Shown here: piece after piece, positions 27,994 through 62,324 of the stretch
How positions within the stretch are numbered: the first letter of the stretch is position 1
Layout of the letters: the number at the start of each line of letters is the position of its first letter
NCBI GenBank assembly: GCA_944322755.1
Contig: CALUPY010000008.1
Location: 1 to 64,000, forward strand
DNA length: 64,000 nucleotides
Source: Candidatus Gastranaerophilales bacterium
GTDB taxonomy: Bacteria; Cyanobacteriota; Vampirovibrionia; Gastranaerophilales; Gastranaerophilaceae
Reading direction: 5' to 3'
The notes under the pieces: generated by a model
What the model was told of the DNA's origin: nothing
The model's database searches: none
The model's input: only the letters and a program-made list of their open reading frames with translations
Program-made: the position numbers and the translations under genes

Positions 27994-30900
27994 CTAAATT
28001 TTTGCCGGAGGAATATTGTACTTCAGGTTTGCGAGTGTCACATGAGGATTCAATCCCTTAAAAGAAACATCTTTTCTCTTTTCGAGCATGTTGTTGCCAT
28101 TGAAATCATACACTCTAAGGAGAGCCAATCCGTATGCACCTATACAAATTTTTTCTCCGCCTTTTTTCACAATTTCACGTCCGTTGTCCGCAACGACGAA
28201 TCTTTCCGACGGGTTAAGCGCATTGTAGTACTCGGTGCCGGCAGGAAGACCGGATGGCAGTCCGTACGGCGCAGCACCGTGCTGTTCAAGGCTTATGCAG
28301 TCAACATATCTTGTTTTATCAGAACGGTCGGGCTGTGCATTGTAGCCTGAATTGTGCAGCACACATACTGCATCAGTTTTGTCGTTATAACGATAGAAGG
28401 CAGCAGCCATGTTAGTGCCGTTAGTTGCATTGTGTGTGAGTGGCGCAAGCGGAACAGTAGAACCGTTTACGAGTGCGGACGCGCCGGGCTGATTTCTGAT
28501 ATTAAATATATCCGCACACTCTCTGCGTTTTGCTTTCAACCAGTCGTAGTCTTTGTCAGTAAGCCATTCCCAGTGAATACGGTTTCTGTTAGCCTGTTTT
28601 TCGTTCTTTGCTTTAGTTTCCCAGCCGGTTTCACCCATTTCATCGCCGATGTAGTTCGTCGGCGTGCCGGGCATGACAGTGTGCATAAAGAGCATGGCTT
28701 TATAAACATCTATTGCTGGCACAATTATGTCTTTAAATGCTGATATTTTAATTTTTTTCTCATCTTCCGGATGTTTTTCCAGATGTTCTTTGAAAGCCTT
28801 AGACGAATGTTTTGCCTCTTCAATTACATCGTCAATGTTTACATCAAACGGGGTTGAGCCGAAATTTTCAGCATCGTAATAGATTTTTTCACCGTTCTTC
28901 GATGTTGCAATACCGGAAGCAAGTCTGATTACTGCATCTCTGAGAGCTGCTCTGCATTCGTTTGGCAGTGCTGCACAATCCTGCAGGTGACCTTCGTTAA
29001 GAAGAGTATTTTTCATGACTTCTGCTTTGTTGTCTTTAAACCTGTAAACATCGTCAATTGCAAGCATATGAAGGATTCTTGGTTTATCATGGTTGCCGAC
29101 AAACAGGTGTGAGAAATTTACGTTATCCAAAAATCCTGAGAAGAGGTACGGAACATCATTATCTTTGTTGTACAGTATTTGCTGTACAAGATTGTCCATG
29201 TTGTCATTTCTCTGTTTGTACTCATCACCCGGTTCTGTGACCATAGTGAAGGCACGGTATGGATTTGAATAAAGATATCTATAGTTCGATTGTGTAGTAA
29301 ATCCGCCCTTGCCGACAAACTCAGCTTCTTTCGTGCCCCAATCCCAGTTCGACGGAATGTCATTTGTTAACTCGCCTATACTGTACTTTTTCGGGTTGTA
29401 TTTATTAATTCCTTCATTAAATCTGCCCCAGAATTTTATAACCTTTTTCATGCACTCATCCGGCGACATAAGGTTTCTTTGAACAGAATCCCAGTCTCCG
29501 ACGTCTTTAGAAGCGTCAATTCTCCAGTCCAAACCTGATTCTGTTTTTTCAATAACAAGTTTTGCAACATTAATCGCATCTGAATCAAGATTTTTTAGTC
29601 TGTTGTAAAGGTGTTCCACAATATATGCACGTTTCTTTTCAGAAATATTGCGCAGGCCGCTGTCTAATTTATCAAGCAGTTTATCTGCGGTAGCCTCGGG
29701 AGAATGTTCAAATTGAAGATTCAGTGATTCAAGCGATACTTCTTTAAGTTTGTCAACCGGGTAGCCGAAAAATTTGTCTTTTGAATCAAAAATCATATCC
29801 GGAGCTAAAGCTGAAACAACAAGGTATTTCACAATATCAGGTGCAATGATTGCATAAACTTCGCGGCCGTCCTGAGTCAATTCACCGTTTTCATCCAGCA
29901 ATGTGCCGTCAAATTTATCCTCATCATCAAGTAGCCGCATTATTTCTTTTGCTTTTACAGTCATGACGCCGGCAAAAATTTTGTCAGCTTTTTCATAAAC
30001 TCTGCGGTAGTCTTCCGGCATTTTAGAGTAATATTTGTCACCGTCTTTGTACATTTCATATCTGGATTTGCCGACATAATCATCCGACACAGCAAGATTT
30101 TTTATGTACGGATAAGCAAGAACCGTCGTCAAATCAGGCGCAAATTCGATAGATTCCAGCGGTAAAGACATAACGCCGTCTGTTATATTTTCTGGCATGA
30201 CTGCTGCAGAAAGTTTGTATTTTCTGTTTCCGTCTGCGCCAAACTCCAGAAGGTTTTCAAGCGCAGAAGGCTCTTTTCCGTTCTTTTCAAAAGCAGCTGC
30301 GGCAGCCTGCGGGATTTTGTTCTCCCAGATTAATTCTTTCAGGGCATCTTCGTATGATACAGGAGTGCCGGTTAAGGATTTTATTTCTTTTATCTGGTCT
30401 TCAGAGAATTTGTTTTCCTTAATAAAAGTTTGCACAGCATTTTCAAAGGCATCTCCGTCGGTTATTTTTTCATAGAGTTTGTCTGCCTGATTTTTCGAAA
30501 TTTTTTCTTCCCAGATAAGTTCTTCAACAGCGGTTTTGTAATCTTTGCCGCTTTTTGTTTTTTCTTTAATCAGCGGTGCCAATTCATCTTTTTTCAATAG
30601 ATTTTCAGCATCCATTTCATTAACAGCATTTTCAAATGCAAGTGATTTGAGTTTGTTTTCTGTGTCGCCGCTGATTTTGTTATCCCAGATTAAAGAGACA
30701 ACCGCGTCTTTTTCAGATTTTACACCCGAAACTTTTTTTGCAACTTCATCTGCTGTATATTCAACCAGGGTACGCTGAACTTCGTTTGTTAAATATTTTG
30801 CGACCTGAATAATGTCGTCCTGCGTCTGGTACTGACCGGCAATCATTTTTGCGATTTTTTCAGGGTTTCCGGCTATCTCATCTGCATTAAGCGCAGATTC

Positions 30901-32292
30901 AGGAAACATAAATCTTTTTTTAGCAATGTCGGTATTTCCTACCCAAAGAGCGATACCGCCGTCTTTATTCGATGGGACAATTTCGTAATTTTTCCATATA
31001 GTTAAAAAGTCTTTAGGTGTACCGATTTTTGTATTTTTGTATTTTTTATAATTTCTTTCGACTTCGGTCGGGGATACCCTGAAAAACATCGCAGGAATAG
31101 TATCTTTCTTTTCGTAATATTTGCGTTTATTGTCAGCAAGCTTTTTGCCGTAAACATTGAAAGGTTTTTCAGAAAGAATCTGCTGCTCAGTCACCATTTC
31201 ATCGTTAAAGACCTGAACAAAGGTCGGTTTTGCGGGGTCAAAGTTTTCATTTTTAACCATGCCTGTATCATCAAAGCCGCCTGTTGCATTTTCTTTAAAA
31301 TTAACTTTGTACGGGCCGTTAATAACTGCAATTTTTACGTTTTTGTCCAGTTCTTTTGAACGCGGACGAATACCCATGGCGAGTTTTTCATTTTCGAGGT
31401 TTTTCGTCTCGAACTGATAAACAAACGGAGATTTGTCTCTCCAGGTTACAATATCTGAAATATGTATACCTTGAAGACCTTCGTTTACATATGCTCCGTC
31501 ATTGACCCAGTGCATGCCCATTTTGTAAATATCGAGCATGAGTTCTTTAAAATCCTTTAGAGTACCGAGATTTTCTGTCACCTGATACGGGTTTTCAGTC
31601 CAGTAGCCGTGGCTTGAAACATTATTATTTCCTGTAATCGGGCAGGAAATTACGCCGTTTGCACCGAATTCTTTGAGTTTCGGCAGTTTTTCCCGTATGC
31701 CCGGAATTGTGCCTCCGAGGTGATTAAAAGGAGTTCTTCTGATTTTTTCATTCTGTTCAGATATCTGCATATCGCTGACCGGAGCTTGTTTTCCTTCTTT
31801 TGTAAGAAATTTGTCAGGTTTTACATTAAAAGAATCGGGAAATATGTGCACCATCTGGCGGGGAAGCAGATGTGCGGAGTGATTTACAGGAGTAGCAATA
31901 TTGTACTGGTATTCAGGATTTCCGATTTTTACTCCGTTTAAAAGTGTATAGTCATGATAGATTTTGCCGTTTACACGAAATCTGTAACCGAGAAGATTGT
32001 CTTTTGAAAGGGGCAAATCCTCTTTTGTAATAGTTATTGAAGAAAAACCTTCGGGCATGGATTTTTTAATAGGATTATCCAAAACTTTTTCTATATTTCC
32101 GTTTTCATTATAATAAAACGGCATCAACTCTATCTCAGCACCCTTTGGCGCATTAGGAAGGTTAATCGTGTATATTTTTTCTCCCTTATTGTCCGTTGTC
32201 AAAACATGGTGCCCGAAATTCGGTCTGGACATAGTTTTTTTCTGTCTGTAGGCAGATTTGTTAATTGAGTTTTCCCCGGTAATCTTCAGCAT
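27994..32292 (-). CDS. giant GH13 (alpha-amylase superfamily) protein with helical insertion
   Basis: 1432 residues. An N-terminal Ig-like region (about 40-130) precedes a split (beta/alpha)8 barrel. GH13 landmarks: a region I-like MHWVNDGAYVNEG (about 258-270), region II WRIDASKDVGD with the nucleophile Asp (about 922), region IV VGNHDKPR (about 1067) and TNYIGDEMGE (about 1215). Between regions I and II lie about 600 extra residues, including three helical units with an L-IW-[DE][EN]KI core about 58 residues apart (near 536, 594 and 653). No signal peptide is seen. It may be a glycogen/maltodextrin-acting enzyme or a modified, possibly non-catalytic relative; region III is not obvious. The C-terminus has an FKG motif. 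Confidence 0.75.
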   Translation of the reverse strand: MLKITGENSINKSAYRQKKTMSRPNFGHHVLTTDNKGEKIYTINLPNAPKGAEIELMPFYYNENGNIEKVLDNPIKKSMPEGFSSITITKEDLPLSKDNLLGYRFRVNGKIYHDYTLLNGVKIGNPEYQYNIATPVNHSAHLLPRQMVHIFPDSFNVKPDKFLTKEGKQAPVSDMQISEQNEKIRRTPFNHLGGTIPGIREKLPKLKEFGANGVISCPITGNNNVSSHGYWTENPYQVTENLGTLKDFKELMLDIYKMGMHWVNDGAYVNEGLQGIHISDIVTWRDKSPFVYQFETKNLENEKLAMGIRPRSKELDKNVKIAVINGPYKVNFKENATGGFDDTGMVKNENFDPAKPTFVQVFNDEMVTEQQILSEKPFNVYGKKLADNKRKYYEKKDTIPAMFFRVSPTEVERNYKKYKNTKIGTPKDFLTIWKNYEIVPSNKDGGIALWVGNTDIAKKRFMFPESALNADEIAGNPEKIAKMIAGQYQTQDDIIQVAKYLTNEVQRTLVEYTADEVAKKVSGVKSEKDAVVSLIWDNKISGDTENKLKSLAFENAVNEMDAENLLKKDELAPLIKEKTKSGKDYKTAVEELIWEEKISKNQADKLYEKITDGDAFENAVQTFIKENKFSEDQIKEIKSLTGTPVSYEDALKELIWENKIPQAAAAAFEKNGKEPSALENLLEFGADGNRKYKLSAAVMPENITDGVMSLPLESIEFAPDLTTVLAYPYIKNLAVSDDYVGKSRYEMYKDGDKYYSKMPEDYRRVYEKADKIFAGVMTVKAKEIMRLLDDEDKFDGTLLDENGELTQDGREVYAIIAPDIVKYLVVSALAPDMIFDSKDKFFGYPVDKLKEVSLESLNLQFEHSPEATADKLLDKLDSGLRNISEKKRAYIVEHLYNRLKNLDSDAINVAKLVIEKTESGLDWRIDASKDVGDWDSVQRNLMSPDECMKKVIKFWGRFNEGINKYNPKKYSIGELTNDIPSNWDWGTKEAEFVGKGGFTTQSNYRYLYSNPYRAFTMVTEPGDEYKQRNDNMDNLVQQILYNKDNDVPYLFSGFLDNVNFSHLFVGNHDKPRILHMLAIDDVYRFKDNKAEVMKNTLLNEGHLQDCAALPNECRAALRDAVIRLASGIATSKNGEKIYYDAENFGSTPFDVNIDDVIEEAKHSSKAFKEHLEKHPEDEKKIKISAFKDIIVPAIDVYKAMLFMHTVMPGTPTNYIGDEMGETGWETKAKNEKQANRNRIHWEWLTDKDYDWLKAKRRECADIFNIRNQPGASALVNGSTVPLAPLTHNATNGTNMAAAFYRYNDKTDAVCVLHNSGYNAQPDRSDKTRYVDCISLEQHGAAPYGLPSGLPAGTEYYNALNPSERFVVADNGREIVKKGGEKICIGAYGLALLRVYDFNGNNMLEKRKDVSFKGLNPHVTLANLKYNIPPAKI

Positions 32293-43052: not shown

Positions 43053-43331
43053 TTTATTCTCCTTTACTGTGTAACGATATCTGACAGCTAATGTCCGGAG
43101 GCTGTATTAGCCAACCCTAAAACCTTTATATAATATTTTTAAAATATTTTTTCACACATGTCAAGTCAGATTCGGATATATTTTTTAATTAAAGAGCACA
43201 AGTAAAATTTCTGTGCTATAATTATGTTGCTGGTATGAAAAATACAGGCAGTTTAGTCTCGGAAAGCAGCGCTCGCGATTTTAAATTTATAGCGCCAGCC
43301 TGCACATCCGCGTTTTGACAACTAAATATTT
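43053..43331. other. intergenic region upstream of the tRNA-Arg repeats
   Basis: These 279 bases hold no gene. From about 43255 to 43331 there is a degenerate version of the tandem unit that follows, with a shared CTCGCGATTTT...TAGCG...CAG pattern, suggesting an older copy of the tRNA-derived duplication. Confidence 0.45.
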
Positions 43332-43504
43332 GCCTCGGTAGCCGGAGCGAGCGAAGCTTGCGACTTTTTGATTTTTAGCGGCAGCTCTATCCAACCGTGG
43401 CAAGAATGCAAAAAATTTGCCTCGGTAGCCGGAGCGAGCGAAGCTTGCGACTTTCTGATTTTAGCGGCAGCTCTATCCAACCGTGGCAAGAATGCAAAAA
43501 TTTT
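43332..43504 (+). repeat. two tandem 86-87 bp units derived from the tRNA-Arg 5' end
   Basis: Units start at 43332 and 43419, each beginning GCCTCGGTAGC, the first 11 bases of the tRNA gene at 43505. The units are nearly identical (a few differences in the T-runs). Each also contains GCTCTATCCAAC (43384-43395 and 43470-43481), the exact reverse complement of GTTGGATAGAGC from the tRNA D-arm (43519-43530). A GCGAGC-GAA-GCTTGC hairpin lies between them. Confidence 0.85.
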
Positions 43505-43578
43505 GCCTCGGTAGCTCAGTTGGATAGAGCGATAGCGTCCTAAGCTGTGCGTCGTTGGTTCGAGTCCAATCCGGGGTA
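43505..43578 (+). tRNA. tRNA-Arg (anticodon CCU)
   Basis: The 74-base cloverleaf folds cleanly. Acceptor GCCTCGG pairs with CCGGGGT (with G-U pairs), D-stem GCTC/GAGC, anticodon stem ATAGC/GCTGT, and loop GTCCTAA gives anticodon CCT, reading AGG as Arg. The variable loop is 5 bases, the T-stem GTTGG/CCAAT, the T-loop TTCGAGT and the discriminator A. CCA is not encoded. G at position 32 is uncommon. Its 3' end is repeated downstream at 43834 and 44390, and its 5' end is repeated upstream, so this is an insertion hot spot. Confidence 0.93.
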
Positions 43579-43767
43579 AATTTTTTTTGCGGAATTAAAA
43601 AACTGAATAATCTCGGATTATTACTTTACGCCTTCAAGTTGTTCGCTATGTTTTGCTTAGGCAAAACAGCCGCTCACTATTTCGGCGTTTTTTCGGCTTT
43701 TGCTCGCTTCACTCGCACAGCCTACGTAAAATCCGCCTCTCACGATTCGGATTTTCTGTCGGAAAAT
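43561..43767. repeat. direct repeat R1 (tRNA 3' end plus hairpin block)
   Basis: Starts inside the tRNA T-arm (CGAGTCCAATCC) and runs 207 bases. It matches R2 (44390-44597) with only a few differences. Its 3' 160 bases also match R3 (46465-46633). It contains perfect hairpins AATAATC-TCG-GATTATT and TGTTTTGC-TTAG-GCAAAACA, and at its end GGATTTTC-TGTCG-GAAAATCC. Frames that read through it are artefacts. Confidence 0.88.
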
Positions 43768-43833
43768 CCTCACTGGTTCTACCCTTCGGGCATCCTGATG
43801 CGTACGGCTCGTGTCTCTCGCCTACGCCTCAAG

Positions 43834-43860
43834 CGAGTCCAATCCGGGGTAAATTTTTTT
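43834..43860. repeat. second copy of the tRNA-Arg 3' end
   Basis: CGAGTCCAATCCGGGGTA followed by AATTTTTTT repeats 43561-43587 exactly. The hairpin block does not follow this copy; an AT-rich tract and then unrelated sequence do. It resembles an attachment site left by insertion at the tRNA 3' end. Confidence 0.85.
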
Positions 43861-44026
43861 TATATTTTTTTTGCCTCTCACTCGCATATGTACGCAAACA
43901 GTTTATTTTATTGTCCAGTTTATTGCTGGTTGAATGAAGTGTACCCCTAAAAATAGAACAAATTGGTAGGAAATTTTAAAATAAAATAGTAAAAATACTA
44001 AAATTGTGTATGTAAAACCCCGCCGA

Positions 44027-44200
44027 CCTTTGCATAGCGAGTTACAGAAAGTTAATTAAACAAGGGTTAGTCTCATCTGTTTGAGCAGCCTGTAATTATT
44101 TTCAAGGTCTTTAATGTTTTTATATGTTTTTGCGGAAATATGGGCTGCGAGTTATGAGACTCAGGTTTAATTTACTTTCTGTATGAGCGGAGCAACAGGT
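44027..44200. repeat. long inverted repeat inside the MITE-like element
   Basis: The left arm, about 44027-44090 (GCCGACCT... ACAGAAAGTTAATTAAAC ...GAGCAGCC), pairs with the right arm, about 44141-44200 (GGGCTGC ... GTTTAATTTACTTTCTGT ... AGGTCGGC). Pairing runs for about 60 bases per arm with mismatches. The transcript would fold into a long hairpin with an AT-rich loop of about 50 bases. Confidence 0.7.
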
Positions 44201-44218
44201 CGGCATGTTTCTTGGGCT

Positions 44219-44249
44219 CCACCCGTTCTTTGCGTCAAAGAATGGGTGG
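44219..44249. repeat. perfect-stem hairpin
   Basis: CCACCCGTTCTTTG and CAAAGAATGGGTGG pair (one G-U) around CGT. No T-run follows. It lies between the long inverted repeat and the right TIR. Confidence 0.7.
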
Positions 44250-44389
44250 AACATACAGCAATAATCGTATTTTGAGACATAATAGTTTTTATAAAAAATA
44301 CAGAATTATCCTACTCATCGATTATGTTTTTAAGGGTACACTTCAGAAAACCCAACCTACTTAATTATTCATTGCCTAGAATTCCTTTG

Positions 44390-44597
44390 CGAGTCCAATC
44401 CGGGGTAAATTTTTTTTTGCGGAATTAAAAAACTGAATAATCTCGGATTATTACTTTACGCCTTCAAGTTGTTCGCTATGTTTTGCTTAGGCAAAACAGA
44501 CGCTCACTATTTCGGCGTTTTTTCGGCTTTTGCTCGCTTCACTCGCTCAGCCTACGTAAAATCCGCCTCTCACGATTCGGATTTTCTGTCGGAAAAT
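44390..44597. repeat. direct repeat R2 (third tRNA 3' end copy plus hairpin block)
   Basis: 208 bases, near-identical to 43561-43767 (one extra T, and single changes near CAGACGCTC and CGCTCAGCC). It breaks off after GTCGGAAAAT; what follows is the 3' end of the mTERF-like gene, so the third hairpin loses its pairing arm. Confidence 0.88.
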
Positions 44598-44607
44598 GGC
44601 AATTAAA

Positions 44608-46428
44608 CTACACAATATTGAATGTGAACGAAACCTTATTGTCAAGTTCCGAAGCCAATATTTTCGCAAATTCACTTAAATTTTCAGTTACACCCTGATT
44701 GTAATTTATATTAAACTCATAATTTCCTGTATTTTTATTCAAAAATTCTTTTAATTGTTCATATTTAGTGGAATATACTGAGTTAAAGGTCTTGTCGGTT
44801 TGTTGATTGATCAAAAAGCCAAGAACCTGTGCTAGTAAATGTTTATCTGCTCTGAGATTTATACAATCAATTAAATTTGTAGACTTAATGCCTTTTAATT
44901 CTTTATAATAAGAATAAATACGTGCTTTTTTTACCAGTGTTTCCGGAGAGACTGTGAAAATTACAGGTTGCCTTAGTGCCATTTCAAGAAGTTCTCTTTT
45001 ATTAACTCCTAATTCTTTTGCGGCGTTAGAAATATTTTGCTCCAACGATTCAGGAGATCTATAGAATAAATTCGAATGTTTTAATGCTGCATCTATAAAA
45101 TGTTGCTTGTCTACGTCAAAACGTTTCGCACACTCGGTAATATTTTTGTATAATGTCTGTGGCTGTTGCGTAAAAATGTTCGGAGATTGCAGTGCACATC
45201 GAATGAGAAGATTTCTATCAACATTAAAAAGCATAGCTGTATTGTCAATATTACTGTTGAGTGTTTGAGGGGCCCGATAAAATAAAGAGGGGTGTTTTAT
45301 TGCTGCTTTTAAAAAGTCACTTTTACTTATCCCGAAAAGATTTGCAGATTCAGTGATATTTTTGTCCAGTGTTTTCGCAGATTGATAGAACAACTGTGGT
45401 TGTTTTACGGCTGATTTTATGTAAGTCTTTTTGTCTATACCTAAGCATTTTACCGCATCTTTTATGTTTTGCTCTAAAGTTTCTGGCGATTGAATACAAA
45501 GTTGTGGTTGTTTTATTGCTAATTTTAATACAAACTTTTTGTCCTGATTCAAAACTTTTGCAAATCCTTCAATATTTTTCTCAAGAGTATCTGACTTCAT
45601 CTGAAATAGCTGAGAGTAATTCAAGGCTAATTTTAAAAATGTATTTTTATCTACACCGAAATATTTTGCTGATTCCGAAAGATTTTTATTAAGTACATCA
45701 AAAGAAGTGACAAAAAGACTAGGTTTGTTCATCGCTGCACTAATAAAAACCTTTCTATTCAATCCGAATTTTTCCGCACATTCTGAAACATTTTTTTCAA
45801 GAGTTTCAGTTGGAATGTAAAAAAGAAATGGATACCTGAGTGCAGTTTTAGTAAACGTTGTCAGTTCGATATCGAATTTTTTTACAGAATTTAGTACATT
45901 TTGATACAAAGTTTGTGGTGAATAACAAAACAGGCTAGGATGTTTTAATGCTGCAGCCACAAAATCCTCTTTTGCAATTTGAAAGAGTGCTGCAGAGGTT
46001 GTTACATTATTATTTAGAGATTCAGTCGACTGATAAAATAGCTGTGGTTGGCGTAAAGCTGCCTTAACAAATACTTTTTTTTCCAAACCGAAACATTCCG
46101 CAGATTTACTGATCGTTTTATCAAGAAAATCTATATCTTTCTCAAAAAATTTTGGAGTTTTTAGTGCAATCTGCTCAAATTTTTCGGGTTCTACTTCAAA
46201 CCTTTTTGAAAAAATTTCAATTTTTTTAATAGTTTTGGGTGAAAGTTCATTGGCTTTTTTGTTTTGCAACGCAACGTGAGCAGCATTTGCAACAGTTATT
46301 TGCGACATAAGATTCTCGCTTGTATCATTAATCTCATGTTTAGTTTGTTTTGCTTGTTGTTTTGCTTTGAAAACAGGTCTTTCGAAGTGCCTATTAGTAT
46401 TAATAATTAAAGTTTCAGAAATTTTCAT
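44608..46428 (-). CDS. protein of twelve 36-residue mTERF-like repeats
   Basis: 606 residues from ATG 46428, chosen because AAGGTG lies six bases upstream; a longer frame would start inside R3. After an 83-residue N-terminus (with a FERPVFKAK segment) come twelve tandem units of exactly 36 residues (about 84-513; DNA 44890-46179). The consensus is F-x-x-A-A-L-K-x-P-x-L-F-Y-x-S-P-E-T-L-x-x-N-I, then x3-AKxFGVDK. The P-x-L-F...L pattern resembles mTERF repeats, helical solenoids that bind nucleic acid in organelles. The last 90 residues are non-repeated. It sits between R2 and R3. Confidence 0.8.
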   Translation of the reverse strand: MKISETLIINTNRHFERPVFKAKQQAKQTKHEINDTSENLMSQITVANAAHVALQNKKANELSPKTIKKIEIFSKRFEVEPEKFEQIALKTPKFFEKDIDFLDKTISKSAECFGLEKKVFVKAALRQPQLFYQSTESLNNNVTTSAALFQIAKEDFVAAALKHPSLFCYSPQTLYQNVLNSVKKFDIELTTFTKTALRYPFLFYIPTETLEKNVSECAEKFGLNRKVFISAAMNKPSLFVTSFDVLNKNLSESAKYFGVDKNTFLKLALNYSQLFQMKSDTLEKNIEGFAKVLNQDKKFVLKLAIKQPQLCIQSPETLEQNIKDAVKCLGIDKKTYIKSAVKQPQLFYQSAKTLDKNITESANLFGISKSDFLKAAIKHPSLFYRAPQTLNSNIDNTAMLFNVDRNLLIRCALQSPNIFTQQPQTLYKNITECAKRFDVDKQHFIDAALKHSNLFYRSPESLEQNISNAAKELGVNKRELLEMALRQPVIFTVSPETLVKKARIYSYYKELKGIKSTNLIDCINLRADKHLLAQVLGFLINQQTDKTFNSVYSTKYEQLKEFLNKNTGNYEFNINYNQGVTENLSEFAKILASELDNKVSFTFNIV

Positions 46429-46464
46429 AAAAAACACCTTTTTAGAGGAATAAAAACTTGTGAA

Positions 46465-46633
46465 AAATTTTTTTTGCGCAATTAAAAAACTCAATAATCC
46501 CGGATTATTACTTTACGCCTTCAAGTTGTTCGCTATGTTTTGCTTAAGCCAAACAGACACTCACTATTTCAGCGTTTTTTCGGCTTTTGCTCGCTTCACT
46601 CGCTCAGCCTACGTAAAATCCGCTCAGATTCGA
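46465..46633. repeat. direct repeat R3 (hairpin block only)
   Basis: Matches the 3' 160 bases of R1/R2 at roughly 90-95% by eye, without the tRNA portion. The AATAATC/GATTATT hairpin is kept (loop CCG); the TGTTTTGC hairpin has one mismatch (GCCAAACA). It lies between the start of the mTERF-like gene and the fic gene, and may hold both promoters. Confidence 0.82.
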
Positions 46634-46668: not shown

Positions 46669-47277
46669 ATGGTATTAGATAATAAACTTGGAATAACCGA
46701 ATCAGCAGAACTCGCAAGAGAAGAAGAAAAAATAAGCAAGAAAAAGGCTTTAGAACTTTTTGAGAGCGGAGTTCTTAATTCTCTGGAAGCCGGTAAATTT
46801 GAATCCTTATCTCAAATTCATAAATATTTATTTGATGAAATATATGATTTTGCAGGTGAAGTGAGAAATATAAATATTGCCAAGGGAAATTTCAGATTTG
46901 CCCCTGTAATGTATCTAAAACAATCATTAGAACATATAGACAATATGCCGCAGTCAACATATGAAGAAATTATAGAAAAATATGTTGAAATGAATGCGGC
47001 TCATCCTTTTAGAGAAGGAAACGGACGTAGTACACGTATTTGGCTGGATTTAATACTAAAAAAAGAACTCGGGAAAGTTGTTAACTGGTCTAAAGTAGAT
47101 AAAGAAGATTATCTTCTGGCAATGGAAAGAAGCCCGATAAAGGATATCGAAATTAAAGAGTTATTGAAACACGCACTAACTTCAGATATAGACAATAGAG
47201 ATGTTTATATGAAAGGAATTGATGCCAGCTATTGTTACGAAGGCTATTTCGCTTATAAAACCAGTGAGTTAAAATAA
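46669..47277 (+). CDS. fic: class III Fic-domain protein (AMP transferase)
   Basis: 202 residues. The Fic motif H112-PFREGNG-R120-STR123 has every catalytic residue, and the flap region lies at about 66-80. Near the C-terminus S187-x3-E191-G192 matches the inhibitory S/T-x3-E-G/N motif, which places it in class III (self-inhibited, relieved by oligomer change), so no separate antitoxin is needed. AAGAGG lies six bases upstream of ATG 46669. Targets could include gyrase, as for NmFic-like proteins, but this is not shown here. It follows R3. Confidence 0.92.
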
Positions 47278-61903: not shown

Positions 61904-62106
61904 AATTTTATATATAACGTTTATTTTTGCATTTTCAATTGTTTTTTAAGGCAAAATCATCGTATATTTTGTAAACTATTTAAATAATAACGCTCTCACA
62001 ATCTTGACACTTCTCTGTGTGCTTGTTATATTCAAGAAGGTATTAGATGGGCAAGCTGTCTACAAATGCCCGGGGGCTGTAACAAGGTAACCCGACTGAC
62101 AAAGAA
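61904..62106. other. intergenic region before the tandem repeat
   Basis: About 200 bases, AT-rich, without a gene. A partial, diverged unit of the tandem repeat that follows (GTAACCCGACTGACAAAGAA) sits at about 62085-62106. Confidence 0.5.
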
Positions 62107-62324
62107 AAGTCCGATTGACGCAAAGCCAACAAGGCGACCCGTTTGACAAAAGGAAGTCCGATTGACGCAAAGCCAACAAGGCGACCCGTTTGACAAAAGG
62201 AAGTCCGATTGACGCAAAGTCAACAAGGCGACCCGTTTGACAAAAGGAAGTCCGATTGACGCAAAGCCAACAAGGCGACCCGTTTGACAAAAGGAAGTCC
62301 GATTGACGCAAAGCCAACAAGGCG
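62107..62324. repeat. 47-bp direct tandem repeat, four full copies plus one partial
   Basis: Units begin at 62107, 62154, 62201, 62248 and 62295 (the last is cut after 30 bases). Only one base differs among the full copies (GCAAAGTCAAC at 62215-62225). There are no spacers, so it is not a CRISPR array. Each unit holds TTGACA and TTGACG hexamers. It ends about 90 bases upstream of rplU. Frames through it are artefacts, since 47 is not a multiple of 3. Confidence 0.93.

Follow-up and report, generated by a model that had tools for sequence, protein, structure and literature searches.

A mobile twelve-unit mTERF-repeat protein in a Gastranaerophilales bacterium, with relatives whose sigma-like modules suggest a family of DNA-targeting transcription regulators

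Background

What does a protein built of twelve tandem mTERF-type units bind in a bacterium, and does it act on transcription? The question is raised by gene P0001, which is encoded in the window (G000:C8), the whole 64,000-nucleotide stretch of DNA that was analysed, derived from a Candidatus Gastranaerophilales metagenome-assembled genome (MAG). The features of the locus are given in Table 1. P0001 is the sole copy detected in its own genome, where no second such gene was found, and it is intact in two further genomes (G033 and G064) with a protein identity of 99 %. By analogy with human MTERF1 and the published bacterial pTERF proteins, P0001 may be expected to bind nucleic acid. It is probably a sequence-specific regulator of transcription that binds double-stranded DNA (dsDNA). 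P0001 itself would act by simple occupancy, and the fused relatives by docking the polymerase.

Table 1 Features of the P0001 gene and its surroundings in the window
Feature	Position	Strand	Basis and remarks
mTERF-repeat protein gene P0001 (606 aa plus stop codon)	44608..46428	-	ATG at 46428; stop codon 44608-44610
N-terminal leader (residues 1-59), predicted disordered/low confidence, start MKISETLIINTNRHFERPVFKAK, without sigma-like domain	46252..46428	-	pLDDT <50 for residues 1-59; no match to sigma-like HMM
Twelve 36-residue mTERF-type units (residues 72-503), three helices apiece	44920..46215	-	Exact spacing, secondary structure, Pfam PF02536, Foldseek
C-terminal alpha/beta domain, family-specific (residues 504-606)	44611..44919	-	Alignments A1 and A5; predicted helices and two strands
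2.1-kb mobile block (2100 bp), P0001 its only gene	44389..46488		99 % identical in G033 and G064; absent from G092
tRNA-Arg (CCT)	43504..43579	+	ARAGORN; Rfam tRNA, E = 9e-10
29-nt direct repeat of tRNA-Arg 3' end (family D2), copy 1	43560..43588	+	Other copies at 43833-43861 and 44389-44417
195-nt direct repeat (family D1), one flank of P0001	44403..44597	+	Another copy at 43573-43767
195-nt direct repeat (family D1, 81 %), other flank of P0001	46460..46654	+	Repeat search
Fic-domain protein gene	46669..47277	+	Pfam Fic, 1.3e-13

The repeat array of P0001

The original prediction described P0001 as an exact twelvefold repeat of 36 residues, and this is borne out. The twelve anchor prolines, two of which are replaced by serine, occur at residues 92, 128 and onwards to 488 (92+36n), with every spacing exactly 36 and no indels. 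Compared with itself at lag 36, the protein reaches an identity of 0.36, far above chance: the other lags between 28 and 45 give 0.03-0.09, and 1000 shuffles gave no more than 0.12. The predicted frame, P-x-L-F...T-L-x-x-N-I...A-K-x-F-G-V, is recovered in outline, with conserved columns at and after the proline (P, 10/12 units; F at +3, 11/12; L at +10, 12/12; N at +13, 10/12) and ahead of it (A at -18, 9/12; K at -17, 7/12; F at -15, 9/12; G at -14, 6/12). However, the variable sites had been placed two before the P and two after the LF, and this part of the description had to be revised: position -2 is a conserved basic residue (K/R in 9/12 units), and the variable positions around the proline are -1, +1, +4 and +5. 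By composition the array appears basic (pI 9.3; 61 K+R versus 45 D+E, with the basic column at -2), and the wholly acidic groove that had been named as evidence against nucleic-acid binding was thus not encountered.

Neither Pfam nor the sigma-like HMM detected a sigma-like domain in P0001, and the Pfam search returned no match in the C-terminal domain, which is found in nearly all relatives. The N-terminus of P0001 (window 46366-46428) contains a motif, M-K/Q/N-I/V ... S/P-F-K/T/G-A/G, which is found at the start of many family members and also of a few proteins unrelated to them (L034:9373-9996, L037:7674-8663 and L066:5305-6717). A loose pattern of this motif occurs in 21/348 neighbourhood ORFs, against one in a shuffle, and it may represent a lineage-wide signal.

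Predicted fold and mTERF membership

P0001 matches the Pfam mTERF family (PF02536) with 71.8 bits (E = 6.1e-20), above the gathering cut-off of 23.1. A search of the PDB with the family profile matched MTERF3 (1.2e-5), MTERF1 and the ciliate mitoribosomal protein mS93. The AlphaFold2 model of P0001, for which 14 window and locus sequences served as input, has a mean pLDDT of 85, with mostly 90-97 in the repeats and three helices per unit, while residues 1-59 are of low confidence and the last 100 residues are alpha/beta. In this model the array is predicted to form a superhelix of three-helix motifs, with proline or serine at all of the S-loop anchors. Ten PDB entries were matched by Foldseek at E<=1e-3 (target-normalised TM 0.36-0.62), all of which are mTERF proteins, and the best of them is an MTERF1-DNA complex. 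The mTERF-like character proposed for the repeats is therefore supported. The rival folds which had been set against it, TPR and LRR, did not appear among the Foldseek matches listed. Nor did a TALE-like fold, with no TALE in the top 50 Foldseek matches and none in Pfam. Weak matches of the repeats to NUMOD1, AIRC, the Fis family and a recombination directionality factor (Pfam, NCBIfam and PHROG) were rejected as repeat-driven or due to chance.

Distribution and array variation of the relatives

PF02536 is present in 36/288 genomes of the same GTDB family, distributed over 17/41 genera. No PF02536 match was found outside the source organism's own family in a sample of the class (82 genera) and of the phylum (142 genera), nor was there a match in fourteen control genomes. 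Within the phylum, the sampled matches are confined to the Gastranaerophilaceae, in which they are patchily distributed. No relatives of P0001 were found in phage records, plasmid records or viral contigs, and none of L052, another family member, in viral contigs.

Iterated searches with repeat and sigma HMMs gathered 57 distinct members. Their units are 36, 39, 40 or 41 residues long, with the length usually constant inside one protein, and in 264/291 cases the spacing is an exact multiple of the modal period of the protein concerned. Family-wide, the anchor proline is kept in 199/226 units and position -2 is basic in 161/226. Certain arrays are near-identical at the DNA level, with periods of 117-120 nt, and two relatives with 78 % identity contain eight and five units, respectively, from which it follows that the arrays expand and shrink. 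A clade with four units (spacings 39, 39 and 36) shares chromosomal neighbours that recur across about ten genomes, whereas the long arrays are patchy in distribution. Tandem clusters of family genes, all with sigma-like N-termini, are found in G245 (L035:4515-10528; three consecutive genes), G702 (L138; three) and G651 (L137; two). Two ORFs of 818 and 1014 aa in G655 (L140 and L141) likewise combine a sigma-like N-terminus with mTERF units, but these are irregular, with gaps of about 181-214 residues, in contrast to the exact arrays of other members.

The sigma-like module of the relatives

A full sigma-like N-terminus, comprising regions 2, 3.2 and 4, precedes the array in 33/57 distinct members, with a partial one in a further five. 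Comparison by TIGR02937, hhalign and Foldseek shows this module to be homologous to sigma factors from region 2 to region 4. TIGR02937 matches the N-terminus of the relatives from position 10 to position 162 of its 165-position model (E = 5.7e-10), with a score of 39.1 bits that falls below the curated NCBIfam cut-off of 42.9, and the module is thus divergent and may not support initiation. Region 4 of L052 alone passes the Pfam cut-off (Sigma70_r4; 31.5 versus 24.1), and a PHROG sigma family matches the N-terminus at 2e-11. By hhalign, the module was aligned over the finger of region 3.2 (SISLDTPI...IADD) and over region 4, both to ECF sigma factors drawn from four related genomes (E = 4.7e-8) and to the RpoD-like protein of the window genome (E = 2.4e-7). 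Furthermore, the region 2.2 core D/E-x-x-Q is retained in the alignment in 16/18 relatives. When the fusion protein L041 was compared using Foldseek, mTERF proteins occupied ranks 1-10, while SigH, SigB, SigE, AlgU and SigK were matched with a probability of 0.93-1.00. The sigma-like profile is found at E<=1e-15 in 29/383 genomes, and these include arrays missed by PF02536. An order-wide search for stand-alone copies of the domain recovered the fusions and otherwise mostly short matches such as ordinary sigma factors give, those fetched being RpoD-like or ECF. One ORF of 1487 aa (G151 contig 28; L146:1463-5926) begins with a stretch of the sigma-like N-terminus of approximately 106 residues and contains no mTERF units, the module here being joined to something else.

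Given that the array is usually preceded by a sigma-like module, the family most likely acts on transcription, and the fusions suggest a family of transcription regulators which choose their DNA targets by means of the repeat array. No earlier report of a sigma-mTERF fusion was found in the literature covered, which consisted mostly of papers outside subscription journals.

The mTERF proteins matched by the profile and Foldseek searches include the ribosome-bound mS93 and MTERF4-NSUN4, and a plant mTERF functions in intron splicing (PMC4005652). The array could accordingly bind a transcript or rRNA, as do plant mTERFs and MTERF4, and act post-transcriptionally. This is nevertheless unlikely, as the top structural match is the MTERF1-DNA complex, the relatives carry sigma-like modules, and the sole bacterial analogue that has been tested, pTERF, binds dsDNA (PMC11417379). 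Far less probable still is a host-directed effector, i.e. a secreted nucleomodulin which enters animal cells and binds host or mitochondrial DNA and for which the disordered N-terminus serves as export signal. While the gut origin of the bacterium, the otherwise mainly organellar occurrence of mTERF and the short N-terminal motif common to certain unrelated proteins of these genomes would fit such a role, the sigma-like modules of most relatives point to the bacterial RNA polymerase, and the conserved chromosomal neighbourhoods of the four-unit clade also argue against it.

Candidate DNA-reading residues and proposed mode of action

In MTERF1 the S-loop prolines follow the DNA major groove, and the bases are read by R162, R202, R251, R350 and R387, with W383 standing in for the proline in the unit containing R387 (PMC4705650). 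In a register counted from printed alignments and fixed by the F243A mutant structure (PDB 5crk), R202, F243 and R350 are located at Pro+1, R387 at +4 from W383, R251 at +9 and R162 at -2. Within the family, P0001 was compared with L069, a protein from another genus which has the same twelve units and is 54 % identical to it. Between these two proteins, same-unit identity exceeds cross-unit identity most strongly, and by a wide margin, at positions +1, +4 and +5 (permutation p = 0.0001, 0.0007 and 0.0001, respectively). This trio ranks first among 816 trios of variable columns, while most of the other exposed positions have little or no such excess. Position +4 is also the most variable within homogeneous arrays. 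In the same test this trio did not stand out in the four-unit clade, and its pooled signal was weak in other pairs of long arrays, few of which are clearly orthologous. The residue code raised in the original prediction thus has a counterpart at +1, +4 and +5 in one pair, where these positions behave suggestively like specificity residues, but it did not clearly replicate in other pairs and is not established.

Tandem repeats of one exact length are a common feature of scaffold proteins. The array might hence be a structural or protein-binding scaffold that merely resembles mTERF, its exact unit length resulting from recent repeat duplication, as the near-identity of certain arrays in DNA would allow. 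This appears improbable in light of the specific mTERF matches in both sequence and fold, the basic composition of the array and the conservation, unit by unit, of positions overlapping with those used by MTERF1.

If P0001 is a dsDNA-binding regulator, as preferred here, its solenoid would wind along the major groove and bind a specific site, with each 36-residue unit offering its proline loop to the bases. Positions +1, +4 and +5, and perhaps -1, would set the base preference, and the basic residue at -2 would contact the backbone or bases. In the fused relatives the array would pick the place and the sigma-like part would dock RNA polymerase, while P0001, without this module, would be a bare DNA binder, acting as roadblock, terminator or repressor, on a small mobile block. 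A more far-reaching version, in which the fusions are natural sigma factors with promoter choice by a modular mTERF array, a readable code (+1/+4/+5) and growth or shrinkage by unit duplication, and P0001 is a derivative without the sigma part that spreads with a mobile block, can be entertained but is rather doubtful. If this reading of the relatives is correct, a repeat-based DNA reader is coupled to a sigma-like module in gut bacteria related to the cyanobacteria. This would represent a new means of specifying transcription start or stop sites and might yield programmable bacterial regulators.

The mobile block and its genomic surroundings

The flanking repeats and neighbouring Fic gene noted in the original prediction are real. 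The copy of the block in G033 is located at the same site, while that in G064 is on a different contig, with no tRNA gene within the stretch read. Identity to G033 is 98-100 % through the Fic gene, which lies with the block in one high-identity segment (99-100 % up to about 47250), and then drops to 74-94 %. The D1 repeat occurs genome-wide only at 43573, 44403 and 46460, aside from a short fragment, while the D2 repeats resemble copies of a target site left by integration directed to the tRNA. Within the 2.1-kb block no integrase was identified. The near-identical copies in G033 and G064, the absence of the block from G092, the drop in flanking identity and the tRNA-end repeats indicate that the block has recently moved, apparently directed to a tRNA site. 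An 86-bp unit repeated in tandem immediately upstream of tRNA-Arg (window 43324-43515), which holds copies of the tRNA 5' end (GCCTCGGTAGC), again points to recurrent events at this tRNA gene.

Several further features were observed in the window. A stretch of 258 bp (44016-44273) has an 88 % match beside efflux genes on contig 1 of G064 (L089:2768-3023) and is perhaps a small insertion element. A tandem array with a 47-bp unit (5.2 copies, 95 % matches) is located at 62081-62324, and an ORF of 1432 aa (27994-32292) matches an alpha-amylase catalytic domain only near its N-terminus (residues 150-266).

Comparison with known systems

The pTERF proteins are bacterial tandem mTERF-like proteins with 3-11 three-helix units, which were described from metagenome-assembled genomes (Hu et al. 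2024, PMC11417379). pTERF1 binds dsDNA with a Kd of 1.87 nM, its dsDNA motif differs from that of pTERF2 (PMC11417379), and DNA binding by bacterial mTERF-like proteins is therefore already known. P0001 is similarly bacterial and composed of tandem three-helix mTERF-like units, as evidenced by Pfam, the exact spacing and the AlphaFold2 model. However, the canonical proline pattern of mTERF is missing from pTERF1, pTERF homologs were reported mostly from Bacillota, and neither sigma factors nor Gastranaerophilaceae appear in the main text of that paper (PMC11417379). By this published description, the P0001 family is set apart by its retention of the proline, its Gastranaerophilaceae hosts and its mostly sigma-like N-terminus.

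With human MTERF1 and PF02536 the family shares the fold, motif and S-loop proline, and base-reading by MTERF1 likewise involves +1 and +4. MTERF1 differs in being mitochondrial and in having eight degenerate units of about 33 residues, whereas the P0001 family has exact 36-, 39-, 40- or 41-mers, another C-terminal domain and often a sigma-like N-terminus. The kept proline and MTERF1-like contact positions make the family a natural data set for tests of an mTERF residue code. With none in the other members of the phylum sampled, the family also constitutes a bacterial comparison point for the origin of organellar mTERFs. The N-terminus of the relatives aligns with the sigma-70 family (ECF and others) over regions 2.2, 3.2 and 4, from which it differs in its divergence (below the curated cut-off) and the repeat array behind it, while P0001 is without this module. 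TAL effectors and TALE-like proteins are comparable in their way of working only, through exact-length tandem helical units, localised variable residues and evolving arrays, while the fold of the P0001 family is that of the three-helix mTERF unit.
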